In this document: positions 4,152-22,836 of the stretch, piece after piece
How the letters are laid out: each line of letters starts with the position of its first letter
Position numbering within the stretch: the first letter of the stretch is position 1
Source: a virus
Direction: 5' to 3' (one strand)
Length of the DNA: 27,499 bases
Virus record (IMG/VR): IMGVR_UViG_3300003323_000451
Location: 1-27,499 of that record
Notes under the pieces: model-generated
The model's input: only the letters and a program-made list of their open reading frames with translations
Database searches by the model: none
What the model was told of the DNA's origin: nothing
Made by a program: the position numbers and the translations under genes

Positions 4152-4153
4152 CG

Positions 4154-4797: not shown

Positions 4798-4808
4798 GGA
4801 TTGATCAC

Positions 4809-5212: not shown

Positions 5213-5251
5213 TAAGCGATCTGCGCCGCGAAACACACGAAGGAGACTGAA

Positions 5252-5706: not shown

Positions 5707-5743
5707 AGCGCTGATGGGCAATCGGCGATCAAGGAGGGATGAC

Positions 5744-6004: not shown

Positions 6005-6014
6005 TCAGACTTAG

Positions 6015-6140: not shown

Positions 6141-6149
6141 GAGGCAGAT

Positions 6150-6302
6150 ATGAAGTATGAAACCGCAAAGGCCAAGGCCGACAAGCTGCTCCGAGAGGGC
6201 GACGCATTGGCTCGGACCGACCCGGCTGAAAGCCGCCGGCTACTCCGCAAATGCCGTCGTTATCGCAAGAAGCAGCGCGACCTGATCGCACCCAAGAGAT
6301 GA
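6150..6302 (+). CDS. Short basic helical protein (50 residues)
   Basis: The open frame starts at ATG 6150, with AGAGG just upstream, and runs to TGA 6300-6302. It encodes 50 residues: MKYETAKAKADKLLREGD, then LARTDPAESRRLLRKC and RRYRKKQRD. It is strongly basic and helical, likely a small nucleic-acid- or protein-binding helix. The stop overlaps the next gene's ATG (ATGA at 6299-6302), the same coupling used throughout the cluster, which supports it despite its small size. Confidence 0.6.
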   Translation: MKYETAKAKADKLLREGDALARTDPAESRRLLRKCRRYRKKQRDLIAPKR

Positions 6303-6601
6303 GCGCCATGCCGCAGCGAATTCAGCGCAAACGCATCAAAGGCTGGAAGATGCCGGACAACACGGTCTGCGTCACGCGGCCGGGGCGCTGGGGCAATCCG
6401 TTCAAGATCGGCGACGACATGCCAGGACTGAAAGATTGCCCGATGGATGCCACGGACGCCGTCCACTGCTTCGAGCTTTTCATCCCGGCCTTCGCGATTG
6501 AGGCCGCGCGGAAGGAACTGCGGGGAAAGAATCTCGCCTGCTTCTGTGCTCTGGATCAGCCCTGCCACGCCGACGTTTTGCTCAAGATCGCCAACAGTTG
6601 A
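6299..6601 (+). CDS. DUF4326 protein
   Basis: This 100-residue protein matches the DUF4326 pattern: PQRIQRKRIKGWKMP, then TRPGRWGNPFKIGDD (residues about 26-40), and later LRGKNLACFCALDQPCHADVLL (about 76-97, split here) with conserved Cys-x-Cys and Cys-His. The family is common in phages and mobile elements and has no established function; the invariant Gly-Asn-Pro and Cys/His residues could form an active or metal site. ATG 6299 overlaps the previous stop; ATG 6308 in frame is an alternative start. Confidence 0.8.
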   Translation: MSAMPQRIQRKRIKGWKMPDNTVCVTRPGRWGNPFKIGDDMPGLKDCPMDATDAVHCFELFIPAFAIEAARKELRGKNLACFCALDQPCHADVLLKIANS

Positions 6602-6614
6602 GCGGTCATGCCTA

Positions 6615-6851
6615 ATGAGCGCACCGCCCATCACGGTTCAGGTCGAATACGACGCGATCAAGGTACGGATCGGCGGCACGCTCCATTTGTACATCGTGCG
6701 GTCCAAGCTGCTAGCCGTGCATTCGTGGAAGATGGAACGGCACGGCAAGTACTGCATCGAATATACGACCGTGGACGGTGACGTGACGTGCGACTACGAT
6801 TCCGTGGAGAAGTTCAACGCCATCCTCGATGGCCTCGATAAGGTTCTTTGA
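6615..6851 (+). CDS. Small beta-rich hypothetical protein
   Basis: This 78-residue protein begins MSAPPITVQVEYDAIKVRIG at ATG 6615. It is predicted to be mostly beta strand (VQVEYDAIKVRI, LHLYIVRSKLLAVHSW, YCIEYTTVDGDVTCDY), ending in a short helix (EKFNAILDGLDKVL). No strong ribosome site precedes it, but upstream starts in the same frame lie inside the DUF4326 gene. No family is recognised. Confidence 0.6.
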   Translation: MSAPPITVQVEYDAIKVRIGGTLHLYIVRSKLLAVHSWKMERHGKYCIEYTTVDGDVTCDYDSVEKFNAILDGLDKVL

Positions 6852-6853
6852 CG

Positions 6854-7024
6854 ATGACAAACAAGGCTGCATAGATCTGCAAGAAATGCCGCGGGCGGTT
6901 CTCAACAATGGCCGAGCACGCCCACCATGAATGCAAGCCGGTCAAACGAGAGCAGCCGGCGCGGAGGCCGTCGAATACGTTGTGGAAAATTACATCATGG
7001 GTCCAGGGTCGGAGTGAAGCTTGA
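6854..7024 (+). pseudogene. Zinc-finger-like mini-gene interrupted by an amber codon
   Basis: ATG 6854 opens a frame reading MTNKAA, then TAG (6872-6874), then continues ICKKCRGRFSTMAEHAHHEC and a basic tail to TGA 7022-7024. After the amber codon the peptide has CxxC and closely spaced His/His/Cys, a plausible single zinc finger. No ATG, GTG or TTG lies between the stop and the first Cys pair, so the finger cannot be made by simple re-initiation. AAGG precedes the start at a usable distance. Most likely this is a nonsense-mutated gene or a sequence error; suppression of the amber codon is possible. Neighbouring genes end in TAG normally, which argues against genome-wide recoding. Confidence 0.5.
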
Positions 7025-7074
7025 ACTCGCGATAGAAACTTGCGAGGCTGGCAACCTAGGGAGAGGCGCTAGGG

Positions 7075-7716
7075 ATGTCAGAACAACCAAAGATCATCGA
7101 CAAGGGCACCAATAACAGCGTAATCGGAAGCGCCATCGTGCCTCGATCCAGGCCAAACGGCGAGCCGCTTTCGATCATCGAATTCCGCGGCAAGAACTGC
7201 TCAATCGAGTTCGGTCCCGACGTCACACTTCGCGGCGTCAATCGCATCATTTTCTATCGGAACAATCAGCACGTCAGGATCATGGGATCCAATGCCCTGA
7301 CTGTGGCGATGCACCTCAAGGGCGCCGGCACCTCAGTCCTGATCGGACGCGGCACAAGCAGCAACGGTGCCGTTTGGATGAACCTTGGCGAACCGGACGA
7401 CCGCGTCGTTATCGGGGAGGACTGTCTCTTGGAGACGAACGTGGCGTTCCGCACGTCGCACTCGCATCCGATCTTTGACCTCAAGACCGGGGAGCGACTG
7501 AACCCCTCCGCCTCTATCGTCATCGCCGACCGCGTTTGGATCGACGACAACGTGACATTACTGGGCGGCTCCAGCATCGGGCAAGGCTCGGTGATTCAGC
7601 CTCGCTCCTTGGTACGAAACGCCATCCCACCGGACTGTCTCGCCAGCGGCGTGCCTGCGAAGATCATTCGGGATGGCATTCGCTGGGGCGAAAAATCCCC
7701 GACCGACGAGAGCTAG
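7075..7716 (+). CDS. Left-handed beta-helix (hexapeptide) acyltransferase
   Basis: This 213-residue protein has an irregular N-terminal beta-helix, then the signature SHSHPIFDLKTGERLNP (residues 128-144), where His132 in the SHP step is the likely catalytic base. Regular hexapeptide turns follow (IVIADRVWI, VTLLGGSSIGQGSVIQP) and the typical end IPPDCLASGVPAKIIR. This matches O- or N-acetyltransferases that decorate capsule, LPS or exopolysaccharide sugars using acetyl-CoA. ATG 7075 is preceded by GGGAGAGG. It is the last plus-strand gene and converges, four bases apart, with a second beta-helix acetyltransferase on the other strand. The sugar acceptor cannot be read from sequence. Confidence 0.85.
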   Translation: MSEQPKIIDKGTNNSVIGSAIVPRSRPNGEPLSIIEFRGKNCSIEFGPDVTLRGVNRIIFYRNNQHVRIMGSNALTVAMHLKGAGTSVLIGRGTSSNGAVWMNLGEPDDRVVIGEDCLLETNVAFRTSHSHPIFDLKTGERLNPSASIVIADRVWIDDNVTLLGGSSIGQGSVIQPRSLVRNAIPPDCLASGVPAKIIRDGIRWGEKSPTDES

Positions 7717-7718
7717 CC

Positions 7719-7745
7719 GATCAACCGGCCTTGCGCGGCTTGATC
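7719..7745. terminator. Imperfect inverted repeat at the convergent gene junction
   Basis: GATCAACCG (7719-7727) and CGGCTTGATC (7736-7745) can pair, with one bulged base and a loop of about 8 bases. It sits just past the stop of the plus-strand acyltransferase and covers the last codons and stop of the minus-strand gene, the right place for a bidirectional transcription stop. It lacks a U-run on either side, so this is a weak prediction. Confidence 0.3.
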
Positions 7746-8269
7746 ACGAATGGCGCCGGCGTCACCACGCAGTCGCTTGGGATGTCACGATTGACCGAGA
7801 CGCACGGCGCGATCTTGACGTTGTCGCCGATGGTGACCTTGCCGTAGACCACCGATCCGGTGCCCATCTCCACATTGTTGCCGATAGTCGGCAGGCCGCG
7901 GTGCTTTCCGACCGTGCAGTTGTGCCGGATGGTGAAGTCTGAGCCAATCGTTCCCATGATCCAGGTCGAATGACCATGCTGTATGCGGCAGCGCGGGCCA
8001 ATCGATAGAGCTGCGATGAACAGCGAGTCGGGACGCGCCAGCTTTGGCAGCAACCGTTGCCCCTCCACAACCTTGGCCCTTGCCAACCGATAGTCGACGA
8101 GCGCGCGGAATGGCGGCAAGGACTTCATCAACGACTCGAACCCTTGGATCACTTCCTGCTTGCCGCATGGATGGTCCCCACCGCGCCACTCAAGCCAAGA
8201 TGTAATGTCCTCTCGCAACGAGAAGCCTTCGTCCGACATCAGAAAATTGACGACTTCCTCCGGAAACAT
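7721..8269 (-). CDS. Serine-acetyltransferase-like beta-helix enzyme
   Basis: This 182-residue protein has an N-terminal helical part of about 80 residues followed by a left-handed beta-helix with hexapeptide turns: LSIGPRCRIQHGHSTWIMG, IGSDFTIRHNCTVG, then LPTIGNNVEMGTGSVVYG and VTIGDNVKIAPCVSV. The order of His98, His100 and His116 and the P-x-IG turn resemble CysE-type serine O-acetyltransferases and related sugar O-acetyltransferases (LbH_SAT group). CysE makes O-acetylserine from acetyl-CoA and serine; with the shortened helical part here, a sugar acceptor is equally possible. ATG 8269 is chosen because GGGGGAG lies 5-6 bases upstream. It is the third gene of the methyltransferase unit. 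Confidence 0.8.
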   Translation of the reverse strand: MFPEEVVNFLMSDEGFSLREDITSWLEWRGGDHPCGKQEVIQGFESLMKSLPPFRALVDYRLARAKVVEGQRLLPKLARPDSLFIAALSIGPRCRIQHGHSTWIMGTIGSDFTIRHNCTVGKHRGLPTIGNNVEMGTGSVVYGKVTIGDNVKIAPCVSVNRDIPSDCVVTPAPFVIKPRKAG

Positions 8270-8304
8270 TGGTCTCCCCCTCGGATACGTCCACCGGAAT
8301 CCCT

Positions 8305-8496
8305 TTAGCCGTGGCCGCCCCACGGATTGCCGAAGTCCTTCTCGGCCTGGTGCAGCTTCGTGAGAAAGTCTTGCCGGGCCGCCGCCCTCTCACGCTCCTG
8401 ATCAGTCGGGCGGTGTGCCAGCCAGAACAGCAAACCCAGCGCGCCGAACGCGAGAGCAAAAGCGGTCGCCAGCAGCCAGATCATCGTCCAGTCCAT
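8305..8496 (-). CDS. Single-helix membrane mini-protein
   Basis: This 63-residue protein opens with one strongly hydrophobic membrane helix (IWLLATAFALAFGALGLLFW, residues 6-25) followed by a charged cytoplasmic-type helix (RPTDQERERAAARQDFLTKLHQ). ATG 8496 has GAGGAG close upstream and lies seven bases beyond the methyltransferase stop, so the two are coupled. No family is recognised. It could anchor the neighbouring enzymes at the membrane or act as a small holin-like or superinfection protein; none of these is demonstrated. Confidence 0.7.
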   Translation of the reverse strand: MDWTMIWLLATAFALAFGALGLLFWLAHRPTDQERERAAARQDFLTKLHQAEKDFGNPWGGHG

Positions 8497-8502
8497 AGCT
8501 CC

Positions 8503-9291
8503 TCACCGCCTGACGTCGAGCACAACGAATCCGGCCGCGTGCTTTACCGAAAACGAAATCGCGCAGGCCCCAGCCTCCAGAATCGGGAAGGCGGCCTCGC
8601 GCGCGCCCTGCATGATCTTTGTCGAATGGCCGGCTCGGATCAGATACGCCCGCTGGTGCGGCATCGCGAATTCCCACAGCGGTTCGATCAGCACGACATA
8701 GGACATCGCCATCTTGCACATGCGGCTGATCACGGTGCTCGGGCTGTCGGCAAAACTGATTGCCCCCATCGACATGACAACGTCATAGCCCACATTGCCC
8801 GAGCCGAATTCCGGGGCATTGAAAGATTGCTGCACGAGTGACGCCACCTCGAGTTCGTTGCCGAAGTGCCTGCGCCCTTCTTCGATACGGCGCGCTGAGA
8901 AGTCCGACCCTGCGATTTCGAGTTTGTCGCCGAACGCGCGACGGAGCGCCACAAGGTTGATGCCGTGGCCGCAGCCGACTTCATAGATCGAAGCCGCGTC
9001 CTGCTTTTCGAGCACCCGATCAAGCGCGCGCTTTACCGGCGCAAGCCATTCAGTGCGCGCCGCGTCGAACGAGACCTTTTCGATGCTGCCGTTACGGACG
9101 GTCGTCAGCGTTTGGAGTGCGATTTGACCGCCGCGATCAGCGCCATCGGACGTGTTCTTTGATTGCAACTCGGTCGGGAAAGGAGCTTGGCCGGACGTCG
9201 ACATTTCGACGATGCGGCGCCCTTCCTCGCGCAGCAGGTGCGCGAACCGTTTTTCCGGAAAAAATCTGTGATACGCTGACGCCAGACCCAT
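8503..9291 (-). CDS. Class I SAM-dependent methyltransferase
   Basis: This 262-residue protein has the Rossmann methyltransferase motif I YEVGCGHGINL (residues 103-113), an acidic residue after strand 2 (AGSDFSARRIEEG, Asp130), a motif near 165-180 (VGYDVVMSMGAISF) and the strand VVLIEPLWEF. An N-terminal region of about 95 residues is helical and basic. It resembles methyltransferases found in polysaccharide or small-molecule modification clusters; the acceptor is unknown. ATG 9291 has no ribosome site, but a TATCAT -10-like box ends five bases before it, so the mRNA could be leaderless. It is the first gene of a three-gene minus-strand unit. Confidence 0.8.
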   Translation of the reverse strand: MGLASAYHRFFPEKRFAHLLREEGRRIVEMSTSGQAPFPTELQSKNTSDGADRGGQIALQTLTTVRNGSIEKVSFDAARTEWLAPVKRALDRVLEKQDAASIYEVGCGHGINLVALRRAFGDKLEIAGSDFSARRIEEGRRHFGNELEVASLVQQSFNAPEFGSGNVGYDVVMSMGAISFADSPSTVISRMCKMAMSYVVLIEPLWEFAMPHQRAYLIRAGHSTKIMQGAREAAFPILEAGACAISFSVKHAAGFVVLDVRR

Positions 9292-9296
9292 GTCAC

Positions 9297-9326
9297 ATGA
9301 TACGACGAAGTCTGGCTCCGATTCAA
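9297..9326 (-). promoter_or_regulatory. Candidate sigma70-type promoter for the methyltransferase unit
   Basis: Reading the minus strand, TTGAAT (9326-9321) is followed after 18 bases by TATCAT (9302-9297), which match the -35 and -10 consensus at 4/6 and 5/6 positions. The -10 box ends five bases before ATG 9291, so transcription would begin at or near the start codon, fitting the absence of a ribosome site there. It lies directly after a candidate terminator for the lysis genes. The match is good but was found by eye, so chance is possible. Confidence 0.45.
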
Positions 9327-9343
9327 CCTGGCGTGGTGCAGTG

Positions 9344-9368
9344 CAAAAGAGGCCCTACCGCGGCCCCT
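9344..9368 (-). terminator. Candidate intrinsic terminator after the lysis genes
   Basis: On the minus strand AGGGGCC (9368-9362) pairs with GGCCTCT (9354-9348), seven pairs including one G-U, around a seven-base loop, and is followed by a run of T (9348-9345). The loop contains the TAG stop of the membrane/coiled-coil gene. This is a compact GC-rich hairpin with a short U-tail, suitable for Rho-independent termination at the end of the late/lysis operon. Confidence 0.5.
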
Positions 9369-9723
9369 GCATCCCGGAACGGCCTTCAAGGCGGTCAATC
9401 CGTTGATCGAGACGATCAAGGCGCCGGTCATGTTCGGCATCTTTCTGGTCGCGAGTTCGGAGGTCCCGATCCGCGTCGCTCTTACGGTATCGGTCTTCCA
9501 TCTGCATGCTGACGCGCTCGGTCAGAACGTCGACTTTACCGGCAAGTTTGGATTGCTCGGCCTTCATGTCCCACAGGGTATTTCCGGCCCATGTCGAGAC
9601 CAAAACCAGCACCGGGAACGCCGAAGCCATTCCAATTCTGCCGATGAGCTTCAGAAAAGCATTTTCGGCAATACTGTCGGCCTTGTCGGTCAATTCCCTC
9701 GCGTTCATCGTCCAGACCCCCAT
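9355..9723 (-). CDS. Membrane-anchored coiled-coil protein, lysis region
   Basis: This 122-residue protein has a short amphipathic start (ELTDKADSIAENAFLKLIG), one membrane helix (MASAFPVLVLVSTWAGNTLW, about residues 32-51), and then about 65 residues of charged coiled coil (KLAGKVDVLTERVSMQMEDRY, and later DRRLDRLDQRIDRLEGR). One helix followed by a long coiled coil is the layout of inner-membrane spanins and of some holin-like proteins. GAGGG lies upstream of ATG 9723; ATG 9708 is an equally good start. The gene follows the endolysin/spanin group and ends at a candidate terminator. Exact function is uncertain. Confidence 0.7.
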   Translation of the reverse strand: MGVWTMNARELTDKADSIAENAFLKLIGRIGMASAFPVLVLVSTWAGNTLWDMKAEQSKLAGKVDVLTERVSMQMEDRYRKSDADRDLRTRDQKDAEHDRRLDRLDQRIDRLEGRSGMQGPR

Positions 9724-9867
9724 AGCGGCGGCCCTCGCTGTGTGGCGCGCGATACATTCCGTTAACCACGTCAGTGGTCAAATGTTCGTCGGCCATGATG
9801 AGGGACCGTGCTGTCTCTCGTTGTGGTCGGGCGGCTGGTTGCTCCACAGCCAGTCGCCCACGGTGCT
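9724..9867 (-). other. Gap with overlapping candidate reading frames
   Basis: This 144-base gap between the lipoprotein and the membrane/coiled-coil gene holds two weak candidates on the minus strand. One is a GTG-started 27-residue frame (9861-9778) beginning with Gly-Asp-Trp-Leu-Trp. The other is an ATG-started frame at 9796 (MADEHLTTDVVNGMYRAP...) that stays open to 9536, well inside the next gene in another frame. Neither has a convincing ribosome site. I cannot tell whether either is translated. Confidence 0.25.
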
Positions 9868-10113
9868 TTAACGCTTCTCGCCCCGACAGGCGCGGATCAT
9901 GTCCCGCGTGTCGACGTAGTCGTTCATCATTCGCTTGAGCATCGGACCGGCTTTTTCGAGCTCGTCGGCCGCCTGCGCCATCTCGGCCTTGGTGTAGCCC
10001 TTCAGTCGCGGGCAGCCGCGCTTGTCGAACACCGGCTCGTTGCAGCTACAGAGAACCGTCGCGCAGGCGACCGCGAGCGCGGTCAGGATCGGTATTCTTT
10101 TCGATCTGGTCAT
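9868..10113 (-). CDS. Probable outer-membrane spanin-like lipoprotein (Rz1-like)
   Basis: This 81-residue protein begins MTRSKRIPILTALAVACATV at ATG 10113, with GGGAGG six bases upstream. The basic start, hydrophobic stretch and LCSC at residues 21-24 form a lipoprotein signal, giving a mature N-terminal Cys24; Cys at the -2 position is unusual. The mature part is charged and helical with a few more Cys. It overlaps the end of the two-helix membrane gene by 68 bases in another frame, the classic layout of overlapping Rz/Rz1 spanin pairs. It is less Pro-rich than lambda Rz1, so the assignment rests on signal plus position. Confidence 0.6.
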   Translation of the reverse strand: MTRSKRIPILTALAVACATVLCSCNEPVFDKRGCPRLKGYTKAEMAQAADELEKAGPMLKRMMNDYVDTRDMIRACRGEKR

Positions 10114-10342
10114 ATTCGCCTCCCAGCTTCTTGACCGCAGCGTCGCGGCGCTCCTGTTCCTTTTGGCCACGCGCAGCGTAGCCCTTGGTGAAGGCACCGG
10201 CGGTCCAGATGGCGGCGGCGCCCAGCGCGATGACGTAGGGCCGCGACTGCGGGATCAGCCAGCCGACCACGACGCAGGCGATGACGATCACGCCGGCCGT
10301 TCCGATCCAGCCCCAGAGGCTGCCAAGGATAAGGTCCCACAT
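10046..10342 (-). CDS. Small membrane protein of the lysis group (holin- or spanin-like)
   Basis: This 98-residue protein starts one base after the endolysin stop. It has two predicted membrane helices (WIGTAGVIVIACVVVGWLI, residues about 12-30, and YVIALGAAAIWTAGAF, about 36-51), then a charged helical tail (GQKEQERRDAAVKKLGGEYDQ, split). Two helices suit a class II-like holin, whereas the charged tail and the overlapping lipoprotein suit an inner-membrane spanin with a longer anchor. I favour a lysis role without choosing between these. No other gene in the window is a clearer holin. Confidence 0.65.
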   Translation of the reverse strand: MWDLILGSLWGWIGTAGVIVIACVVVGWLIPQSRPYVIALGAAAIWTAGAFTKGYAARGQKEQERRDAAVKKLGGEYDQIEKNTDPDRARGRLRDGSL

Positions 10343-10343
10343 G

Positions 10344-11117
10344 TCAGTCGCCGCTCGATATCAAGCCGCGGATGTCTGGCTTACCGTTCCGCTCCCAAAT
10401 GATGTAGCCAAGCGCGAGCAGCGCCACGATGGCGAACCAAACCCGCCAATCGGTCAGCGCCGTTTCCAGCGCCGTCTGCACCGCGCTCCAGACCGTCGCC
10501 AGGGCGGTCACAATGGTGGCCCAGAACGTCTTGCTCTGCGCGAGCGGCTTCGGCGGTTCCTCGGGCGTCACGTCCTTGGGCGTCAGCACCGGCTTGTCCG
10601 CCGGCGGCTCGGCTTTGTCGGCCTCGACGTAGTCGTCATCCCAGAGCGCTTGCTCCGCGGTCCGACGCCGCACCAGGCCGTTGAGCACCTGCCCTTTGGA
10701 CCGGATGAACTCGCCCAGCTTCGCGCGTGCGCCGGCATAGTCGCCGCGGTTGAGCACCGCCGTGACCTTCTTGAGGTTGCCGACGCCGCAATTGTAGGCG
10801 AAGGACACCAGCGCATCGAACTGGCCTTGCGACACCCGGACCTTGACCGCGCGGTTCACCTCATCGACGCATTCGCCAAGGTCGACGTCGAGGATCTGCG
10901 TCGCCTCGGCTTCAGTCACCTGCGTTCCGAGATGGCATTTGATCGGATGGCGCGCCGCGTCGGTGTGGCCGTAGCCGATCGTCAAGGTGCCCCGGACCGC
11001 GCCGCCGTCCCATTCCCGATATTTGCCGCGCACCGGCGGCACGAGATCGTCGTAGACATACGGAACGAAGCCCTCGAAGCTCTTGATGAGCTTGAGGCCA
11101 TGCGAGCCGAGCTTCAT
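10344..11117 (-). CDS. Endolysin, GH24 lysozyme with membrane-spanning C-terminus
   Basis: This 257-residue protein has an N-terminal T4/P22-type lysozyme (muramidase) domain. Glu15 in KSFEGFVPYVYDD is the catalytic acid, Asp23/24 the second acidic residue, and TIGYGHT (46-52) the conserved Thr segment, with about 20 extra residues between Asp and Thr. The helical part includes FDALVSFAYNCGVG and ends in GLVRRRTAEQALW. After a Pro/Lys linker (about 178-205) come two hydrophobic helices, the second clear (VWFAIVALLALGYIIW). It cleaves the peptidoglycan glycan backbone. The membrane tail is unlike soluble T4 lysozyme and implies tethering or a built-in export/holin-like part. It overlaps the upstream gene by four bases (ATGA). 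Confidence 0.88.
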   Translation of the reverse strand: MKLGSHGLKLIKSFEGFVPYVYDDLVPPVRGKYREWDGGAVRGTLTIGYGHTDAARHPIKCHLGTQVTEAEATQILDVDLGECVDEVNRAVKVRVSQGQFDALVSFAYNCGVGNLKKVTAVLNRGDYAGARAKLGEFIRSKGQVLNGLVRRRTAEQALWDDDYVEADKAEPPADKPVLTPKDVTPEEPPKPLAQSKTFWATIVTALATVWSAVQTALETALTDWRVWFAIVALLALGYIIWERNGKPDIRGLISSGD

Positions 11118-11311
11118 GTTTTCCTCTCCCTGAGGCAGGCTAAAACCTCTGAAACTTCCTTCTCCGAAAGGCCCAGAGCCCGTGCACGCTGCTCAACCTG
11201 TGCGGTGCTGAGCCCGCGCGCTTTCTTGCGCACAACATCGCAGGAGACCGGAAGCGCAGCCGCGCACTGAGCGGAGACGAGCAGCATCAATACGGCGGAG
11301 ATCAGCCTCAC
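11114..11311 (-). CDS. Small secreted protein between PseB and endolysin
   Basis: This 65-residue protein starts at GTG 11311, with GGAGGG five bases upstream and a GTGA overlap with the PseB stop. The first 20 residues (RLISAVLMLLVSAQCAAAL) form a signal peptide with likely cleavage after Ala-Ala, leaving a 45-residue mature part: SCDVVRKKARGLST, then a helical AQVEQRARALGLSEKEVSEV and CLRERKT. The two mature Cys could form a disulphide. It overlaps the endolysin start by four bases. No family is recognised; export and position suggest an accessory lysis or periplasmic role. Confidence 0.65.
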   Translation of the reverse strand: MRLISAVLMLLVSAQCAAALPVSCDVVRKKARGLSTAQVEQRARALGLSEKEVSEVLACLRERKT

Positions 11312-12267
11312 ACCGCCCTCCGCTTCATGCCGGACGCAAATCCGAGAGCGACAAGGCGTTGGCGGATCTCGTCGACGCTCATGCGCCGCGCGGTGTCGCT
11401 GCACAGCGGAGCATCCAAGCGGTCGCCTTCCGCGCCGGCGACCCAATATGGACCACGACGCCCGAACTGAGCGCGCTCGTCATCGCTGACCATGCTCTCA
11501 TGCAGTTTTTCCCCGGGCCGGAGCGCGGAAACCTGCATTCGGCCGCCCATGGCCTCGACCAAGTCTTTGACCTGATAGGCCGGCATCTCGGGAACGACGA
11601 TCTCGCCGCCGTGGGCCTGGTCGAAACTCCACACGACGAGGTCGACTGCTTCGTCGAGCGTGAGCCAGAAGCGCGTGCAGAACGGATTGGTGACGGGAAG
11701 ACGCTCCACGCCTTGATCCAGCAGCGCACGCCAAGCCGGGACGACGCTGCCGCGGCTCCCGGTGACGTTGCCGTAGCGCGCCACCGCGAATTTCGTCTTT
11801 CCAGCCGCGTAGGCGTTGGCAGCGCAGAACAGCTTTTCGCTGACGAGTTTGGTGGCACCGTAAAGGTTTGCCGGCGCGCTGGCCTTGTCGGTGGAGAGTG
11901 CCACCACCTTTTTGACGCCGGTGCGGATTGATGCCTCGATGACGTTCTGAGCACCGAGGATGTTCGTTCGGACGGCCTCGAACGGGTTGTATTCCAGAAG
12001 CGGGACGATCTTCAGCGCCGCCGCATGCACGACGATGTCAACGCCACGCATTGCCATCTCCAGGCGATCGCGGTCGCGCACGTCGCCAATGAAGAAGCGC
12101 ACCCGATCATCTGCCATAGCCTGCGCCATGGCGTGCTGCTTCTGCTCGTCACGCGAGAAGACGACAATGCGGCCCACGCCGTCAGCCAGCGCGCGGGCGA
12201 CGAAGGCGTTGCCGAAGGAGCCGGTGGCCCCGGTAACGAGAACGGATTGTCCGGAAAGTGTGGTCAC
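11308..12267 (-). CDS. pseB: UDP-GlcNAc 4,6-dehydratase (inverting), PseB-type
   Basis: This 319-residue extended short-chain dehydrogenase has TGATGSFG (residues 12-19) as the NADP-binding loop and GDVRDRDRL (61-69). LSTDKASAPANLYGATK (124-140) holds the Thr126-Asp127-Lys128 and Tyr136...Lys140 residues characteristic of PseB/FlaA1. A substrate-domain segment ARYGNVTGSRGSVVP follows. PseB converts UDP-GlcNAc to UDP-2-acetamido-2,6-dideoxy-beta-L-arabino-hex-4-ulose, the first step to pseudaminic acid. GTG 12267 fits the usual N-terminus and has GGGA six bases upstream; GTG 12279 is an alternative. No PseC aminotransferase is visible, so pathway completion would need host genes. About 120 bases separate it from the ejection gene, without a clear promoter or terminator. 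Confidence 0.85.
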   Translation of the reverse strand: MTTLSGQSVLVTGATGSFGNAFVARALADGVGRIVVFSRDEQKQHAMAQAMADDRVRFFIGDVRDRDRLEMAMRGVDIVVHAAALKIVPLLEYNPFEAVRTNILGAQNVIEASIRTGVKKVVALSTDKASAPANLYGATKLVSEKLFCAANAYAAGKTKFAVARYGNVTGSRGSVVPAWRALLDQGVERLPVTNPFCTRFWLTLDEAVDLVVWSFDQAHGGEIVVPEMPAYQVKDLVEAMGGRMQVSALRPGEKLHESMVSDDERAQFGRRGPYWVAGAEGDRLDAPLCSDTARRMSVDEIRQRLVALGFASGMKRRAV

Positions 12268-12389
12268 GCGCGGTCCCACGATCAGACGCGCGAGCTCGTG
12301 CTCACGGCATCCAAGGTTGAACCGCAGGCGCTGCGGCGGAGGTCGGCCAGCGCGGCCGTATCGAGACGGCGTGTCCCGTTAGACGTGTA

Positions 12390-14117
12390 CTACGGAGTCG
12401 CCTCGTCAGGAAGCGCGTACGGGGAGGCGTTGGCGGCGTACGGGGCGGCGGCGGGCCCCAGCGCGCGCGGGAGGGTCCAGCGAGACAGAGGAGGGAGCCC
12501 CCGCAGCGCCGCGACGGCAGGACGCTGCCATGCCTGTTGAGAGGCAAGGTAGGCTTGGGCCGGCCGGGACATGATGGTGCGCCCGACCAGCGCAGGCGCG
12601 ATCGCACCGGCCGCGGCTCCCTTCAGCCGGTCCGTAAAATCCCCCTCGGTTCCGGCGGCCCCGAGCGCAGCGCCGACCGGCATGGTCATGAGGTGGGTCG
12701 CGGCGCGCGGCGCCGTGCCGGACTGCGGGAGCGGCGTCAGGATGGCATTCCCGGCGCGCACAGGCTCCGCGTAGTCCCCGCGGCCGCGGGCATACCCACG
12801 CCGGTCGGAAGCGCTGCTGGTGATCGCCTGACGCATCCGGGCCGGGCTCAAGGCTCCTTCGGCTGCGGCCTCTCCGCCGCCGGCCGCCACGCGCTCGATC
12901 GGCAACAGATTTCGGTATTGGTTTCGCACCTCGCGCCATGCGCCAGCGTCAGCCGGATTGCGGGCCGCGATCGACCTCTCCATCAGGTCGTCCATGGAGT
13001 TTCTGACATCGGCGAGGAACATCGACAACTCGGGGTCCTTGGCCTGTCCGCGGCGCATGCGTTCGATCCGGGACCGCAGCGCTTTGTACTGTTCGCCGGA
13101 CATCACCGGATTGTTGGCGAACTGGTTATAGGCGTGCTGGATGATGTTCTCGACCATCGGCTTTCGCAGGGGGTCCTGGAACAAATAGTCGTAGTCCCGC
13201 GCGGCCGTGTTCAGGTCCATGAAATACTGGCGGTCGATCGGTGCATCGTTGCGCGCGGCCAATCGGTCAAATTGCTGACCGATGCGGGTCCCAGCTCGGG
13301 CCACCACGTCCGGCGTGGCTCGGTCCGCATTCTCACCGATGCGCCGCAACATGGCACGGCTGAACTCCTCACCGACACGGCGCTCGGACTCGGTAGCTCG
13401 GCCGCCAGCGCCTGGCAGATCACCCAGATGGCTCTCGGCATAGCGCAGCGCCTTGCGACCCGTGACCTGACCGGCTGTCGGGTTGACGCCCTCCTGCGTC
13501 AGCGTATCCACGAGCGCTTGGCGCTCCGGCGTGATCGGGAGAGGCGCGGCGGTACGGGCCAGCCCGCGGGGCGTCAGGGCGCCGAGCACCGCCCCCATGA
13601 TCCGGCCATATCCCTCGCTGGATTCGCCGCGCAGAAGCTGCCCGAACAACTCGGACATGCCACCGGAAGCCGCCGCGGTCGTGGCCTTCCCGGCTATGCC
13701 CCCCGGTCCAATGTAGCTCACCGGATTCGTGACCGCGCGCGTTGTGCCGCGCGCCACCTCGCCGGCTTGGCTCTGCGGCTCGTAGAACTTGCCAGTGTAG
13801 CCTTCGATAGCCCTTTGCAACTCCGCGGAGCCAGGCAGAAGATACTCGGCGTTCGGCAGTTTGCCGGCCGCGTTCGGCGTCATGCTTGGCGGGGGCAACG
13901 GGCCACGGGCGATGCGCTCAATGTCGCCCGGAAGGCCAATTGCATCGATAGGGCCATGGGCCAGACCGATGCCACCGGATTTGGCGATGTCGGCGACCGC
14001 TCCTTCCGGCGCAAGGGCCGGCTTGTCGGGTCGCGCCTTCGGCACCCCCGCAAACGGGTTGTCGATCGCCCATCCCGGCGCGTCGGCCTGTGCCCAATCC
14101 GGAGTGTCGTTTGCCAT
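12390..14117 (-). CDS. Probable internal virion / DNA-ejection protein (575 residues)
   Basis: This 575-residue protein starts at ATG 14117, directly after the TAA of the preceding large gene. It begins with a low-complexity Trp/Pro/Ala segment (PDWAQADAPGWAIDNPFAGV), an amphipathic region around LPGDIERIARG, Gly/Ala-rich hydrophobic stretches, long charged helices (around 250-400) and a second Gly/Ala-rich C-terminal part. This composition, size and position beside another large protein at the end of the tail genes fit ejection proteins that pass into the host envelope during infection. No enzyme motif is seen. The TAG stop is followed by 35 in-frame sense codons, judged a chance extension. 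Confidence 0.65.
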   Translation of the reverse strand: MANDTPDWAQADAPGWAIDNPFAGVPKARPDKPALAPEGAVADIAKSGGIGLAHGPIDAIGLPGDIERIARGPLPPPSMTPNAAGKLPNAEYLLPGSAELQRAIEGYTGKFYEPQSQAGEVARGTTRAVTNPVSYIGPGGIAGKATTAAASGGMSELFGQLLRGESSEGYGRIMGAVLGALTPRGLARTAAPLPITPERQALVDTLTQEGVNPTAGQVTGRKALRYAESHLGDLPGAGGRATESERRVGEEFSRAMLRRIGENADRATPDVVARAGTRIGQQFDRLAARNDAPIDRQYFMDLNTAARDYDYLFQDPLRKPMVENIIQHAYNQFANNPVMSGEQYKALRSRIERMRRGQAKDPELSMFLADVRNSMDDLMERSIAARNPADAGAWREVRNQYRNLLPIERVAAGGGEAAAEGALSPARMRQAITSSASDRRGYARGRGDYAEPVRAGNAILTPLPQSGTAPRAATHLMTMPVGAALGAAGTEGDFTDRLKGAAAGAIAPALVGRTIMSRPAQAYLASQQAWQRPAVAALRGLPPLSRWTLPRALGPAAAPYAANASPYALPDEATP

Positions 14118-17021
14118 TTACGGCTCCACGCCGAAGCGCTGGATGAACTTGCCGCGGACCTCCGGGTGAGCCCGAGCATAGTCGATATCGGCTTGCGTCG
14201 GCTTGGGCCGCTCTCCGCCCGTCTTCTTGCCAGTCATCAGCCGGTCAAACGTCTGCTGCGCCTCAGGCGATAGGAACGTCATGGGGTCTTTCGTCGTGCC
14301 CATGCCGGAGTTGTAGGCTTTGCCCATCGCCTCGATGCGCGAACCAAGCAGCTGCGCCAGCGTCTTGTTCGTCTCGCGCATCTCCTCCGGCGACATGCCG
14401 GCGTGCATCAGGGCGCGCCACGACTTGATGCCGCTGATGGCCGTCTGGCTGCCGCGGAACGCCTTTTCCAATTCGTTGGACACGGCATCGGCTGCGGCAT
14501 CGAATTCTTTCACGCGTGGGTCTTGCTTGTGCTCCAGCACCCACTTCCGCGCTTCATTAAAGGTCTTGGTGGCCGGACCCCAATCGTCAGTCTTCCAGTT
14601 GTCGAGAGCCGCGCCTTTCTTGTCCAGCGTGTTGATGTGGCCGAGCACCGTGTTCAGCGCCGTGATGTTGCGGCCCTCAACGCCGGTGCTCGCGAAATTG
14701 GCGCGCGTTCTCGCGCGAGCATTGTAGTTCACGGCGTCGAACGACGGATCGTACTGAGTGACGAGATTCAGAACTGCCTGCCGCTGCTTCTGCGGAATGG
14801 CCGTGACCGGAATACGACCTTCCGAAATGCCCTTCACGAGATTCGCGCTCTCTGGCGGGAGCTTGTCGAGAAAGTCCTGACGAACCCCCGCAGGAGCGTC
14901 GCCAGCCACCGGCTTGGCGCCCGGCGGTAGCGCCGCTTCTTCTGGAACCGGTGCCGCGGCGGTCTGGACCGCAGCTGGCGCAGCCGCTGGCGCGCCTTCC
15001 ACCTTGGGCGTGACCTCCGGCTCTTGCCACTGCTGCCCGGTCTTCGGGTCAATGCGGATATACTGGCCCGTGGCCTGATCCTTGCGCGCGTAGACATCGC
15101 GGCCGAGCTCGTCGGTGCCGATCTTCACCGGCTGCATCTGCGTGATGTCGTGCTGCCTGATGCTTTCCTGCAACTGGCGCTCGCGCAGGCCATGGCTCTT
15201 CATGAACTGGTCGGCCTGCTGCATCAGCCGCTTGGCCTCAAGGTCCACGCGGCGATCCTGGGCGCCGTGCTGGCGCTGCTGCTCGAGCACCTTCAGCCCC
15301 TCAAGCGCGCCCTTCCCGATGTTGACCCCCGCGAACGGCGATGTGCCCGCCATCATGCCGAAACCAGCGGCCGCCAGCGCCTCCCACGGCGATCGCGGCG
15401 GCGTAGCGGCTCGATCAGCCGCAGGAGCCTCCTCGACCGCATCCGTCCCATCATCTTGCGGGTTCGGTTGCATGGGCTGCTGCACGGCGAACGGCTGCCG
15501 ACCGAATGTGCGCGATGGCGCGGCCGCAGGCGGCGCAGGCGGAACCACGCCGCGGGGCGCTGCCACGGGCGTAGCGTCCCACGCCATCGGCTTGCCCGGA
15601 CCGATAGCGTCTCCGTTCAGCACCGGGAACGGCGAGGCGTTCGCCGCTGGCGCCTGCGGGATATCCATGAACCGATCATTGATGAAAGCGCTTGGTGAGC
15701 CCGGATCCGGCGCGCCGCCATCGGCAAAGCCCTGACCGATGCTGAACGGGTTCACGGCACCGCCAGACGCATGTCGGAGGATGCGGCCGCCCTTCTGTGC
15801 GAGCAGCATCGGCAGGATCTTCATGGCCGCAGAGGCGATATTGCTCAGGTCCGAGCCGCCTGAGCCCCCAGACGCGCCACCGCCGCCACCGCCCGGCGCA
15901 GCCATCTGCATCGGCTGCGGATATGGCCCGGGCTTCATCTCGATGGTCGGCACAACATCGTCCACGGCACCGCCGGCATCGCGCGGCACGCGGCCGCCGC
16001 GGTTGCCGTACCAGGAGCCACCGTACGGATTTGGATAGCTCGGAGCATTCAGGGCCGAGCTGTAGCCCCCGGACATGCTCATCGGCGACGTGCCGCCGAA
16101 CCCGGCGGTGCCGGAGCCCTTCCCGCCCCCGCCTCCAATCAGGCTGCCAAGGCCGCTTCCGATGGAGCCGCCGAGCGGTCCGCCCATGACGGTGCCAGCG
16201 ATACCGAGCCCAGCGCCAAGAATCTGACTGAGCGCGCTCGGCTGAGCCGGAGTCGACACCTGCGTGCTCTGGCCGGCGGTCGTGCCGCCGAGCGCCGGAG
16301 CGACGCCACCGGTGACGCCAGCGAGATACTGCGCGGTCTGGAACGGGTAGGCCAACCGAGCGAGCGTGTTCTGATAGGGGGCGTTGAGTTCGGCTTGGCT
16401 CTGCTGCTGCTGAAGGCCACCGACGTTGAGCTGCGCGCCAGCCCCCTGGAGCTGCGCTGCCTGCGCCGCTGGCCCAAGCGAGCCGAGCGCGAAGGCACCC
16501 TGTGCCTGACGCTGTTTCTCGTTCTGCGCCGCCGCGAGCGCACTCTGGTAGATGCTCGCCGCGGTCTGGCCGGCCGTGAGGCCCTGCTGCCGCGCGAGCT
16601 CGGACTGACCGACGGCGATCCGGTCCGCACCGACGCCGCCAGCAGCCTGGGTGAGTTGTCCCGTGACGTTGCGATTCTGCTGCCCGAACGTCTCGGCCAG
16701 ATTGTCGAATATGCTCTTGGCGTACGGGTTGTAGTAGTTCTGGATGTCGGCTTCCGTGATCGGCGCGGCGCTGGCGTTCGCGTAGTTGGCCGCGCTCGTG
16801 AAATACGGGTTCGCGATCCCCTGCGCGTTGCGTACCGTCTGGAAGGCGGCCAACTGATCCGGGGTCAGGCCAGCGACTGGCGCAATCGGCTGCTGGAACG
16901 GCTGGTTCGCGGCCGCCGTCGCCATGTTGACGGCCTGCGTCCCAGCCTGCCCCACAGCCGGGTTTGGCGTGTAGGTTTGCGTCTGGGAGGTCTCGACCTT
17001 GTTGCTGCCCTTGGAGCCCAT
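14118..17021 (-). CDS. Large internal virion / ejection-type structural protein (967 residues)
   Basis: This 967-residue protein starts at ATG 17021 with AGGA eight bases upstream. The first 250 residues are Gln/Ala/Asn-rich helices. A hydrophobic Gly-rich segment (GAGLGIAGTVMGGPLGGSIG, about 270-290) and Gly/Ser/Pro-rich linkers follow. A motif GGR(V/I)xRxAxGGAV occurs twice (about 342-354 and 412-425). The middle is Pro/Ala-rich, with coiled-coil stretches near 600-640, and the C-terminal 250 residues are a helical domain (NITALNTVLGHINTLDKKG...). This mosaic is typical of podovirus proteins ejected with DNA. No lytic transglycosylase or peptidase motif is apparent. Confidence 0.7.
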   Translation of the reverse strand: MGSKGSNKVETSQTQTYTPNPAVGQAGTQAVNMATAAANQPFQQPIAPVAGLTPDQLAAFQTVRNAQGIANPYFTSAANYANASAAPITEADIQNYYNPYAKSIFDNLAETFGQQNRNVTGQLTQAAGGVGADRIAVGQSELARQQGLTAGQTAASIYQSALAAAQNEKQRQAQGAFALGSLGPAAQAAQLQGAGAQLNVGGLQQQQSQAELNAPYQNTLARLAYPFQTAQYLAGVTGGVAPALGGTTAGQSTQVSTPAQPSALSQILGAGLGIAGTVMGGPLGGSIGSGLGSLIGGGGGKGSGTAGFGGTSPMSMSGGYSSALNAPSYPNPYGGSWYGNRGGRVPRDAGGAVDDVVPTIEMKPGPYPQPMQMAAPGGGGGGASGGSGGSDLSNIASAAMKILPMLLAQKGGRILRHASGGAVNPFSIGQGFADGGAPDPGSPSAFINDRFMDIPQAPAANASPFPVLNGDAIGPGKPMAWDATPVAAPRGVVPPAPPAAAPSRTFGRQPFAVQQPMQPNPQDDGTDAVEEAPAADRAATPPRSPWEALAAAGFGMMAGTSPFAGVNIGKGALEGLKVLEQQRQHGAQDRRVDLEAKRLMQQADQFMKSHGLRERQLQESIRQHDITQMQPVKIGTDELGRDVYARKDQATGQYIRIDPKTGQQWQEPEVTPKVEGAPAAAPAAVQTAAAPVPEEAALPPGAKPVAGDAPAGVRQDFLDKLPPESANLVKGISEGRIPVTAIPQKQRQAVLNLVTQYDPSFDAVNYNARARTRANFASTGVEGRNITALNTVLGHINTLDKKGAALDNWKTDDWGPATKTFNEARKWVLEHKQDPRVKEFDAAADAVSNELEKAFRGSQTAISGIKSWRALMHAGMSPEEMRETNKTLAQLLGSRIEAMGKAYNSGMGTTKDPMTFLSPEAQQTFDRLMTGKKTGGERPKPTQADIDYARAHPEVRGKFIQRFGVEP

Positions 17022-17030: not shown

Positions 17031-17561
17031 CTACGCGGCGCGCGCTCCCGCAGCCGGAATGGCGGAAGCACTCGACGGCATCACGAAGAAGAACTCGCCA
17101 GCCTTCGGGAGCATCCGGCCGTACAGGCGGCACTTGGCCTCGGTGCGCTCGTTCGAGATGATGCCGGTGAACAGAGGCAACTTCACCGCCTCGACCTGCG
17201 ACTTCATCCATTCGATCAGCGCCCTCGCATGACCGGATTTCCTGCAATCCGGGTCGACGTAGACGATGAACTCCTCGATGTGCCGATCGCGCGTGTACCA
17301 GAACTCACCGATGGTGATGAAGCAGAGGCCTTCCAGTCGGCCGACGGGCCCGATGACGGCGATGAGCCCGCGGACACCGGTGTCGCCAACCGGAATGAGA
17401 TCGGGGCGCAGCGCGCGCTGGATAAACCACTCGACCTTGTCCGGCGCGAGCGTGAAAATTCCGTTCTCCGAGTGGCCGGCCAAGAACAGCCGCCAGATTT
17501 CCTGGTGGTCGTCGGGACCTGCGATGCGAACGTTGCTCGGCGCGAGCGTTCGATTGAGCAT
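17031..17561 (-). CDS. GNAT-type acetyltransferase in the virion operon
   Basis: This 176-residue protein starts at ATG 17561 with GGAG six bases upstream. It follows GNAT topology: VRIAGPDDHQEIWRLFLAG at the start, a central strand pair (GLCFITIGEFWYT), EEFIVYVDPDCRKSGHARAL where Arg/Gly/His residues correspond to the acetyl-CoA loop Q/R-x-x-G-x-G/A, and a late strand near KLPLFTGIISNE. GNAT enzymes transfer acetyl groups to amines of proteins or small molecules. Similar genes occur beside ejection genes in other podophages by recall, so this may be a virion-linked component, not part of the PseB route. Substrate is unknown. Confidence 0.75.
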   Translation of the reverse strand: MLNRTLAPSNVRIAGPDDHQEIWRLFLAGHSENGIFTLAPDKVEWFIQRALRPDLIPVGDTGVRGLIAVIGPVGRLEGLCFITIGEFWYTRDRHIEEFIVYVDPDCRKSGHARALIEWMKSQVEAVKLPLFTGIISNERTEAKCRLYGRMLPKAGEFFFVMPSSASAIPAAGARAA

Positions 17562-19875: not shown

Positions 19876-20096
19876 CAGCTATACCCTGGAATCTTGTAAA
19901 TACCGCCGGAACTCGTTTGCACCGAGATGAAGATTGCGGGCTGCGACGAGTCGAATGTAATGGCGCCGGCCGTCGGGGCTGACGTGGAGGTCGCGGTGGC
20001 CTGCGGGAAGATATTCCCGAGCTTGGTGCTCAGGCCATTGATGGCCTGAACGCCGTTCTGCATTGCCGACAGGATTTGAGTAAGGGTCCCGGCCAT
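19875..20096 (-). CDS. Small tail-associated hypothetical protein
   Basis: This 73-residue protein begins MAGTLTQILSAMQNGVQAIN at ATG 20096, overlapping the previous stop (TGATG) and overlapping the next gene at its own end. The first half is an amphipathic helix; the second is beta-rich (AGAITFDSSQPAIFISVQTS, ending YKIPGY). Small proteins of this look lie between nozzle and fibre genes of podophages and may be a fibre-attachment or plug component. No family name can be given with confidence. Confidence 0.65.
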   Translation of the reverse strand: MAGTLTQILSAMQNGVQAINGLSTKLGNIFPQATATSTSAPTAGAITFDSSQPAIFISVQTSSGGIYKIPGYS

Positions 20097-22117
20097 CAGC
20101 GTCTTCCTGCTGGGGCCCAGCGATATTTCGCCCCACCGATACGCCAGAAAGACCCGACATCATTACTCTGAATGAGTATTGCCATGAATCGTCCCCTCAG
20201 TCGAGGATTGAGGAACTGGGTCGCCTGGGTGAACGTATACGGGCCGTAGCTTCGCGGCGTGTCGCCCATGTAGTCCACGGCTTTGAAGGTGATCTGGATC
20301 GAGGCCGTCTGTGCGCCGCTGTAGGTCCCGAACTTCATGTCCGGAAGGAACCAGTCGACGATGGCCAACTCATTGCCTTGCGCGATCGACCAATAGCCGC
20401 TCTCAAAAGAGGCGGTAATTGGCGACGTGACGTTGTTGTAGCCCTCCTCGTGCTGATAAATGTTGACCGTGTCGGCCCCGATCGGGTTGCCAAGCGCGGT
20501 CACATCAATCCAGGCATTTCGTCCGAGAACACCGTAATCCCACTCGCCCTCGCTGATGTTCAGCTTGACGTAGGAGTCGTTCTCCCCGTTGCCGTTCATC
20601 GACGGGAAGTACCATGTGATTTCGTTGAACGTGCTATTGGGCGCGCAGCAAATCTTTCCCTGGTTGGTGGTGTCCAGGTTCTGGAAGATGAAGTCCCAGA
20701 CCGTGCACGGAATGGGAGTGACTTCGCCGCCAGACAGACGGAAAAAGTTGTTCAGACCGCACCAATAGACGTCGCCGCCGATCTTCCCCGCCGCGTGTTT
20801 GCCGATAAGACCACAGCCATTGCCGACGCGCGTGAAGTTGAAAATCACGTCGCCGCCGACGTATTGCATCAGCCAAACGTCGACGTCGGTCCAGATCACG
20901 CCATAGCTCGGCGCCTGCAACCCGCCCATGATGATCGAACCGGTCGGAATGTGGAAACTGCCAGCAGCGGTCTGGCTCGTCACCGCGAAATTCGTGTAAT
21001 CGCCGGCATCTGACCAGCGCACTTCGAGCGGATCCTGCACGCCGGTCGACTGCGTCGAACGCCAGCACACCAGGATTTGCTGAGGCATCGAAATGAATAT
21101 GCCGCCGTTGAAGAACGGCGCGGTGGCGACGACGGCCGCCGTGGAAAATCCGCTGTCAGGCGCCCATGCGTAAATCGGTCCGTCTTCCGGACACGCAAGG
21201 AGCACCTCGCCCCAGTTGTCCATGGTCCAATCGGTCGCCGTGATCGGCGTGCCCTCGCCACCGATCGTCGGCGACCCCATGCCGTAGCCGCCGAGCCCGT
21301 AGCCGCCGATGCCGTAGCCCGATCCGCCGGATGGCGGACCAAGGGTGATGTAGTACACCACCTCCGCCTGGCCGCCGTTCATGGTCTGCGTATCGTTCGA
21401 AGTGGCTTGAGCCGGCGCAACGATCGTGTAGGCGGTGGAATCTATGATGGTCCGGGTTTGATAGCGGCCCTGGACCGTGAGTCCGCCAACGTTCGTCGGC
21501 GCGATATACGGCTCGAACAGGCCGTTGATGGCGGGATAGTTGTTGTTCGGCAGTTCGACCTCGATCGAGCCGCTATTCGCGGTCGTGGTGAAGATCGGAA
21601 GAATGCCGCTGCTCACAACCGTGGACGAGGAATCGCCCGACGACAGGATGGTGTAGGAGCTGGAGCCGCCGACCGTGTTGACCTGATAGGGTCCCTGGAT
21701 CAGCGTTCCGCCGACGGCCAATTGCGTGTTGAAGTAGGCCACATCGAACGTGGACAGGCTGCTGCCTGGGTCAACCACGGTCACGACATTGCTGCCGGAC
21801 GATATCGAAAAGTCCGGAGTGAAATCGCTGGTCCGGGTCTGCGGGGTCACATCCGAGAGCGAGCCGGCCGTGATGATGCCGAGCTGCCCAGTGGCGCCGA
21901 CCGCGACGTACTGCGTTCCAGTCGCACCCTGCCAAGCATGAATGGCGCGGATCGTCGAGGTGATCGTCAGCGGATAGTAGGAATCCCAGCCGCCAATCTT
22001 CTGGATGAGGCCGTCTTTGTAGCGGATCAAATTTGAAACCGACACGCCGGCTTCGTTCAGCGCTTTGGTGCGCTGAGTGTTGACGCCTGGCCGCAGAATG
22101 ACGGTGCCTGTCGGCAT
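20096..22117 (-). CDS. Probable tail nozzle / stabilisation protein
   Basis: This 673-residue protein starts MPTGTVILRPGVNTQRTKAL at ATG 22117, two bases after the TAA of the adaptor gene. The N-terminal LRPGVN...T...NEAGVS...NLIRYKDGLIQKIGGW pattern and the long beta-propeller-like body with repeated Gly/Trp/Asp blades (AIHAWQGATGTQYVAVGA, VIWTDVDVWLMQY, VYWCGLNNFFRLSGGEV) resemble P22 gp10-type packaged-DNA stabilisation and tail nozzle proteins. It would assemble below the adaptor ring and seal the channel through which DNA leaves. The C-terminus ends in beta strands and basic residues. Confidence 0.75.
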   Translation of the reverse strand: MPTGTVILRPGVNTQRTKALNEAGVSVSNLIRYKDGLIQKIGGWDSYYPLTITSTIRAIHAWQGATGTQYVAVGATGQLGIITAGSLSDVTPQTRTSDFTPDFSISSGSNVVTVVDPGSSLSTFDVAYFNTQLAVGGTLIQGPYQVNTVGGSSSYTILSSGDSSSTVVSSGILPIFTTTANSGSIEVELPNNNYPAINGLFEPYIAPTNVGGLTVQGRYQTRTIIDSTAYTIVAPAQATSNDTQTMNGGQAEVVYYITLGPPSGGSGYGIGGYGLGGYGMGSPTIGGEGTPITATDWTMDNWGEVLLACPEDGPIYAWAPDSGFSTAAVVATAPFFNGGIFISMPQQILVCWRSTQSTGVQDPLEVRWSDAGDYTNFAVTSQTAAGSFHIPTGSIIMGGLQAPSYGVIWTDVDVWLMQYVGGDVIFNFTRVGNGCGLIGKHAAGKIGGDVYWCGLNNFFRLSGGEVTPIPCTVWDFIFQNLDTTNQGKICCAPNSTFNEITWYFPSMNGNGENDSYVKLNISEGEWDYGVLGRNAWIDVTALGNPIGADTVNIYQHEEGYNNVTSPITASFESGYWSIAQGNELAIVDWFLPDMKFGTYSGAQTASIQITFKAVDYMGDTPRSYGPYTFTQATQFLNPRLRGRFMAILIQSNDVGSFWRIGGAKYRWAPAGRR

Positions 22118-22119
22118 TC

Positions 22120-22836
22120 TTACACCCTCGGCGGCGTCGCAACTGGCGACGGAGAAGCAGAGGTCCAGCCTTCGGACTCGAACTTCGCCCTGGCCTGCTC
22201 GACTGCGGCCGACTTGAACAGAATTTGATATTGGTTCTCCCACGACTGCCCCTGAGCAGGATTGTCGGCCTGCGCGCCGAAGTCGCGCTGATAGCCGGTC
22301 CCAAACACCATGGATGCCGCGATGAAGAGGTCCGGCACATACTGCGTCAGGATGGTCGACGAGTTTGACGCAGACAGGGACGCAGGGCGCTGGATTCCGA
22401 TGACCTCGGCGAAATACGGAGCATCCGGCGACGGGCCGAGAATGACCTGCGTGTTCGACGCCATGGCATAGTACGAAGGCGTTCCGGTTGCGCTTTGGCC
22501 CGAGGGATAAACGAGGTCGATCCACGACCGGTCCACAGCAATCAGCGGAACGCGGGTCCCGGCCGATGCTGCCGTGCCGGCCGGCGTGATGATGTTGATG
22601 TTGTCGGCCGTGATGAATGTTCCGACGCTGGTCGGAAGATTGAAGTTTCGATTCCCGCTGGACACCTGCGTGCTGGCATCCGTGGTCTGTGTGTAAAGCA
22701 GGTCTGCTTCTCGATAGATGCGCTGTTCGGCGTAGTCGATCATGCCCGGCAACATGATCTGGAAATTCGCGTCCGACGACGCGATGACCATCAGGTTCGA
22801 GATTTGCTGGACGTACGTGGTGTAGTTGAGAGCCAT
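22120..22836 (-). CDS. Phage adaptor protein (head-tail connector type)
   Basis: This 238-residue protein starts MALNYTTYVQQISNLMVIAS at ATG 22836, overlapping the previous stop; a GTG three bases earlier is also in frame. The pattern of an N-terminal helix, FQIMLPGMIDYAEQRIYREADL, a central beta domain (FITADNINIITP, VDRSWIDLVYP) and a C-terminal helical return (YQRDFGAQADNPAQGQSWEN) matches podophage adaptor proteins of the P22 gp4 / SU10 adaptor kind, which ring the portal and join it to the nozzle. The Ser/Pro tail is probably disordered. Two adaptor-like proteins occur in this operon. Confidence 0.75.
   Translation of the reverse strand: MALNYTTYVQQISNLMVIASSDANFQIMLPGMIDYAEQRIYREADLLYTQTTDASTQVSSGNRNFNLPTSVGTFITADNINIITPAGTAASAGTRVPLIAVDRSWIDLVYPSGQSATGTPSYYAMASNTQVILGPSPDAPYFAEVIGIQRPASLSASNSSTILTQYVPDLFIAASMVFGTGYQRDFGAQADNPAQGQSWENQYQILFKSAAVEQARAKFESEGWTSASPSPVATPPRV

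Follow-up and report, generated by a model that had tools for sequence, protein, structure and literature searches.

Alteration of host glycans by phages is usually regarded as the work of single transferases acting on sugars that the host has already made. Modification of nonulosonic acids by phage-encoded enzymes is established experimentally: acetylation of the K1 capsule by NeuO increases survival against K1 phage (PMC13001214), and in Acinetobacter the targets of prophage enzymes are pseudaminic (Pse) or legionaminic (Leg) acid of the capsule (PMC12053666, PMC6586298). The DNA considered here (the window) is the entire virus record IMGVR_UViG_3300003323_000451 of 27,499 bases, a fragment of a podovirus-like phage genome. 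It encodes a PseB-like uridine diphosphate N-acetylglucosamine (UDP-GlcNAc) 4,6-dehydratase, a NeuO/OatWY-like acyltransferase, a methyltransferase and an acetyltransferase resembling serine acetyltransferase (SAT). What makes the locus notable is a PseB apparently of phage lineage that is tied into the lysis cassette, together with probable nonulosonic acid (NulO) clusters in close relatives of the phage.

The PseB-like gene lies on the minus strand (11308..12267) and begins with GTG, with an alternative GTG upstream at 12279. Its product scores 298.9 bits against Polysacc_synt_2 (PF02719; gathering cut-off 20.2), and its top match in the PDB is Helicobacter pylori FlaA1 (2gn4; E 1e-86). In particular, the motif STDKA..P..LYGATK holds D127, K128 and Y136 of STDKASAPANLYGATK, which align to FlaA1 and which we take to be the catalytic Asp, Lys and Tyr of the FlaA1 type; all three are present in the predicted protein. 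A wider scan recovered PseB homologues at no fewer than 295 IMG/VR loci, and the analyses of phage PseBs described here refer to the best 80 of 295 relatives. In a tree built by a quick method with no bootstraps, the window protein falls within an all-phage clade of 25 rows (Shimodaira-Hasegawa-like approximate likelihood ratio test 98), and 29 alphaproteobacterial PseBs form a separate clade that does not include it. Moreover, a C-terminal ARRMSV-type motif is found in the window protein and in 7 of 80 phage rows, and in none of 36 bacterial rows. The protein thus appears to belong to a phage-specific branch of UDP-GlcNAc 4,6-dehydratases. A recent transfer of the gene from the host was also considered; the same quick, bootstrap-free tree argues against it.

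On the minus strand, the ejection-protein genes are followed by PseB, a 65-amino-acid open reading frame (ORF; 11114..11311) with an N-terminal signal-like segment, and a GH24 endolysin (10344..11117; PF00959, 110.8 bits; phrog_7 endolysin, 8e-41) with a C-terminal hydrophobic segment. Next come a membrane protein that is a candidate Rz-like i-spanin (10046..10342; N-terminal hydrophobic segments, weak phrog_1026 match, E 0.035) and a candidate Rz1-like lipoprotein (9868..10113) with an LCSC lipobox, which overlaps the Rz-like frame. The order continues with a small membrane or coiled-coil protein of 122 amino acids (9355..9723; weak PHROG matches only), the methyltransferase, a 63-amino-acid membrane protein with a hydrophobic N-terminus (8305..8496) and the SAT-like gene. 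A preliminary description of this DNA had likewise placed the lysis genes among the enzymes, and the endolysin, the spanin-like pair and the small exported ORF are indeed found there. The stop codon of PseB overlaps the start of the 65-amino-acid ORF in GTGA (11308-11311), and the stop of that ORF overlaps the endolysin start in ATGA (11114-11117). By these overlaps PseB is part of the lysis cassette, and it is predicted to be translationally coupled to the lysis genes. The same description had spread the enzymes over at least three transcription units, which finds no support, as the minus strand carries three of the four in collinear order in the late array and PseB appears coupled to the lysis genes. 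Terminator-like sites on that strand lie within genes or at 7724-7699, after the SAT-like stop, the sole one at a gene end (both strands together hold 11, against 4.7 expected); the minimum is two units, one per strand.

Relatives of the phage were found with its stabilisation-type structural protein (20096..22132, minus strand; phrog_3287, 1e-58), a scan with which returned 71 related viral loci; the 76-kb record G001 contains the one nearest to the window (L004, 84% identity). Thirty of these records, many of them fragments, were searched whole with each of the four enzyme proteins. The SAT-like and NeuO-like genes were each found in 0 of the 30, in searches that had no internal positive control; single absences are weak evidence, since so many of the records are fragments. 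The methyltransferase gave two weak matches (E 1e-5 and 4e-4), in G007 and G001, both inside clusters beside the terminase gene. PseB homologues occur in four records (G001, G006, G007 and G008), at other genome positions; these are the four long records among the closer relatives, and near-complete relatives of the window phage measure 71-76 kb. The preliminary description had grouped the four enzymes as a module; because the four genes do not co-occur in the related records, that grouping is not conserved, and the four enzymes are not one conserved module.

Genes in the relatives were called with a home-made codon-usage caller, and the calls are approximate. Around PseB in all four long records, these calls outline a cluster adjoining the large terminase gene (G001:12001-32000, L081; G006:14001-34000, L083; G008:33001-53000, L085; the ends of G007, L087 and L088). 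The clusters contain a GNAT, a methyltransferase, a MocA-type oxidoreductase and/or a formyltransferase, PseB, a DegT aminotransferase and an SpsF-type cytidylyltransferase fused to an aminotransferase. A NeuB-like gene is present in G001, G006 and G008; it is absent from G007 and from all ten of the other, more distant records searched. Against NCBIfam, the G006 PseB scores 422.6 bits, over its cut-off, whereas the best matches NeuB/PseI and PseC fall under theirs, so a nonulosonate pathway is likely for these clusters but not proven.

A similar association is seen more widely. A NeuB-like match lies near PseB at 54 of the 80 best loci, and tblastn detected a NulO pathway partner at 40 of the 45 phage PseB loci whose flanks reach 5 kb or more in both directions. 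Two of the five others, L134 and L178, have divergent sugar-cluster genes when their gene calls are read. None of the 80 phage PseB loci matched the window endolysin or ejection proteins. By eye, PseB is followed by apparent sugar-cluster genes in L153 (7989-14487), L178 (8139-12767) and L134 (7890-13786); the calls include DegT-, NeuA- and NeuB-like genes in L153 and L134, HisF-like genes in L153 and L178, and WbpG/PseA-like genes in all three.

Our preferred reading, on which we place about even confidence, is that a late phage PseB supplies glycan synthesis, with the remaining steps encoded beyond the fragment or by the host. Coupling to the endolysin, as read from the sequence, would imply late production of PseB. 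Its family and its kept catalytic residues suggest that it most likely converts UDP-GlcNAc into a 4-keto-6-deoxy intermediate. This intermediate may lead to a NulO or another 6-deoxy-N-acetylhexosamine glycan, with the other steps coming from the host or from genes not included in the 27.5 kb; judged by the layout of G001, the cluster region would lie at least about 17 kb past the window end and therefore outside the visible stretch, and set against that genome the fragment would lack about 45 kb. For the convergently encoded NeuO-like enzyme, O-acetylation of a surface glycan is the probable role. We infer, then, the late expression of PseB, its UDP-GlcNAc substrate and any effect on surface or virion glycans.

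Several observations weigh against this reading. None of the four enzymes reaches an NCBIfam equivalog cut-off, and PseB, the nearest, narrowly misses that of TIGR03589 (376.9 bits, E 6e-113; curated cut-off 407.75). The relatives' clusters probably serve NulO biosynthesis of the pseudaminic or legionaminic type and apparently hold most, perhaps not all, of the pathway; they adjoin the terminase gene, not the lysis genes, and have the opposite orientation to the structural genes. In the window, tblastn with the relatives' cluster proteins hits the window's own genes only, with no NeuB, cytidylyltransferase or aminotransferase among them; the same queries recover every NulO partner in G001 and in G008, and most of them in G007. 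A NulO locus, with synthase, cytidylyltransferase and aminotransferase beside the dehydratase, is accordingly not seen within the 27.5 kb, nor was a glycosyltransferase recognised there. Moreover, PseB is apparently truly solo in L166 and L169, whose PseBs are identical, and in L176, so that a NulO pathway does not follow from a phage PseB by itself.

The acyltransferase (7075..7716, plus strand) is a hexapeptide enzyme encoded convergently with the SAT-like gene (PF00132, 35.6 bits; cut-off 27). Its leading PDB matches are NeuO (3jqy; E 1e-26) and OatWY (2wlc; 7e-21), followed by galactoside acetyltransferase (1e-12). Six active-site residues are conserved between NeuO and OatWY (PMC3046976); three of them are kept in the window protein, as H131, W155 and W204, and the equivalents of M134, R174 and R222 are L118, D158 and E206. 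The predicted catalytic His and Trp, H131 and W155, are both among those kept. An N-terminal heptad-repeat tract of the NeuO type was sought, and there is no tandem repeat in 6500-12600. The enzyme would resemble a NeuO-type O-acetyltransferase in its working, and it is not classed as a polysialic-acid enzyme. Neither it nor the SAT-like protein had a relative in single-protein scans of IMG/VR.

The class I S-adenosylmethionine methyltransferase (8503..9291, minus strand) passes the gathering cut-off of PF13649 (36 against 27 bits) but lies far below that of the pseudaminic-acid-associated methylase TIGR03587 (22.9 against 112.05). Homologues were found in two of 385 alphaproteobacterial genomes (E 2e-26 and 1e-22), one in a small island of PhyH-like, GSCFA-like and methyltransferase genes (domain names assigned by eye) and the other in a neighbourhood that looks non-glycan. 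No relative was recovered from IMG/VR by a single-protein scan or a three-sequence alignment, nor from phage and plasmid collections by tblastn, and structure prediction from the one sequence gave a mean predicted local distance difference test score of 34.6. The SAT/WcaB-like hexapeptide acyltransferase (7721..8269, minus strand; PF00132, 40.9 bits) matches TIGR04016 WcaB (2e-13) and EpsC (4e-13), each under its curated cut-off; against the CysE/EpsC or WcaB models its scores are 41.5 against 210.65, 49.4 against 150 and 50.1 against 194.65 bits. These two appear to be accessory genes in their own right, at the junction of late and early genes. The four coordinates and families given in the preliminary description are therefore sound, all four passing Pfam cut-offs, and its glycan interpretation survives in part: glycan chemistry is supported by the phage PseB relatives in apparent nonulosonate clusters and by NeuO and OatWY as the acyltransferase's nearest solved relatives, but a single glycan substrate shared by the methyltransferase and the SAT-like protein is not.

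It is unlikely that one four-enzyme module acts on a single surface glycan by dehydration, acetylation and methylation and thereby prevents re-adsorption or superinfection. All four families are known from bacterial surface-glycan loci, three of the genes are collinear, and the island around one methyltransferase homologue may be of a kind seen near glycan genes; however, co-occurrence fails in the 30 related records, in the 80 phage PseB loci the SAT-like and NeuO-like genes have no match and the methyltransferase has very weak ones at best, the acyltransferase lies on the opposite strand, and the methyltransferase is far from the Pse-methylase cut-off. Another view, that the four genes are unrelated morons at insertion-tolerant sites (the late/early junction and the lysis cassette) and serve separate purposes or none, would account for their patchy distribution among related records, for the small unrelated ORFs or empty sites in relatives and for a guanine-plus-cytosine content of 59-61% in three of the four, against 60-69% in structural genes. 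Yet the frames are intact, PseB and the NeuO-like enzyme keep their predicted catalytic residues and all four families suggest sugar or small-molecule chemistry; we consider this view distinctly unlikely.

The remaining alternatives concern PseB. It is doubtful that the lysis cassette has recruited the dehydratase as a means of diverting UDP-GlcNAc, or of making a NulO sugar, just as the cell opens; if it has, a drain on wall precursors would help lysis, or a late glycan change would stop progeny from sticking to debris. Another reading, in which a solo PseB drains UDP-GlcNAc late, starves peptidoglycan or lipopolysaccharide synthesis and so aids lysis with no glycan product required, strikes us as quite improbable: most well-flanked phage PseBs accompany NulO partners, the product would have to accumulate to deplete the pool, and the literature searched holds no precedent, although the predicted coupling to the endolysin and the lack of partner genes in the window fit it. 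So does the unrelated phage of loci L166 and L169, in which an apparently solo PseB (8001-8981 in L166, the same in L169) stands at the late-gene end directly after small membrane-type ORFs, resembling the window. Least probable of all is that PseB provides a sugar for tail or capsid proteins synthesised alongside it; from the gene array and the overlaps, PseB would be expressed late, together with the structural and lysis genes, but no glycosyltransferase is recognised in the window and nothing links the sugar to virion proteins.

The assignment to a podovirus-like phage is based on gene order and PHROG matches to ejection proteins and a stabilisation-type protein. Late genes occupy the minus strand and small genes the plus strand. 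Two minus-strand ejection proteins serve as position anchors (12390..14117, phrog_26400, 6e-29; 14118..17021, phrog_4287, 4e-6). A GNAT (17031..17561, minus strand; phrog_1249) is located between a tail-region gene and these proteins; it holds the equivalent position in all inspected relatives and is therefore a core gene, not a moron. Plus-strand genes within 1-6851 include an ASCH/RNA-binding-like gene (1601-1897), a MazG-like gene (3292-3741), an HD-type phosphohydrolase (4360-4797) and a phrog_464 gene (6251-6601). A structural protein very rich in glycine, possibly a tail fibre, is encoded at 25238-26488. Rfam and tRNA scans of the window gave no match.

The relatives apparently encode most of the pathway for a sialic-acid-like sugar, and the endolysin-coupled PseB opens the question of timing to testing. 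No report of phage-borne NulO clusters was found in the literature searched, which covered few subscription papers. A global survey of metabolic genes in ocean phages left out contigs carrying nucleotide-sugar epimerases or other genes of lipopolysaccharide type (PMC11360552); such clusters may thus be under-reported.

Compared with known systems, the window PseB is similar to PseB/FlaA1 (TIGR03589, 2gn4) across most of its length and keeps the putative catalytic Asp, Lys and Tyr, and its relative in G006 passes the PseB cut-off; it differs in scoring below that cut-off, in its phage-type C-terminus and in its predicted coupling to lysis genes. The probable NulO clusters on the terminase side, found in the four long relatives and also from 15 IMG/VR PseB loci, share a homologous PseB, and those four share a related phage backbone, whereas the window PseB stands alone in a lysis cassette. 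The acyltransferase belongs to the hexapeptide left-handed beta-helix family of its top PDB matches, NeuO of the P22-like Escherichia coli K1 prophage CUS-3 and meningococcal OatWY, and keeps the His/Trp pair and one pocket Trp; it differs in three replaced active-site positions and in having no phase-variable heptad repeats. The SAT-like protein has the domain and part of the N-terminal region of the CysE, WcaB and EpsC acetyltransferases but falls far below all curated cut-offs. Finally, the Acinetobacter prophage system (epaA-epaB; the O-acetyltransferases atr29/atr30; PMC12053666, PMC6586298) likewise directs phage genes to host-capsule nonulosonic acids; it modifies NulO made by the host, whereas the window is linked to NulO through its PseB and the clusters of its relatives.

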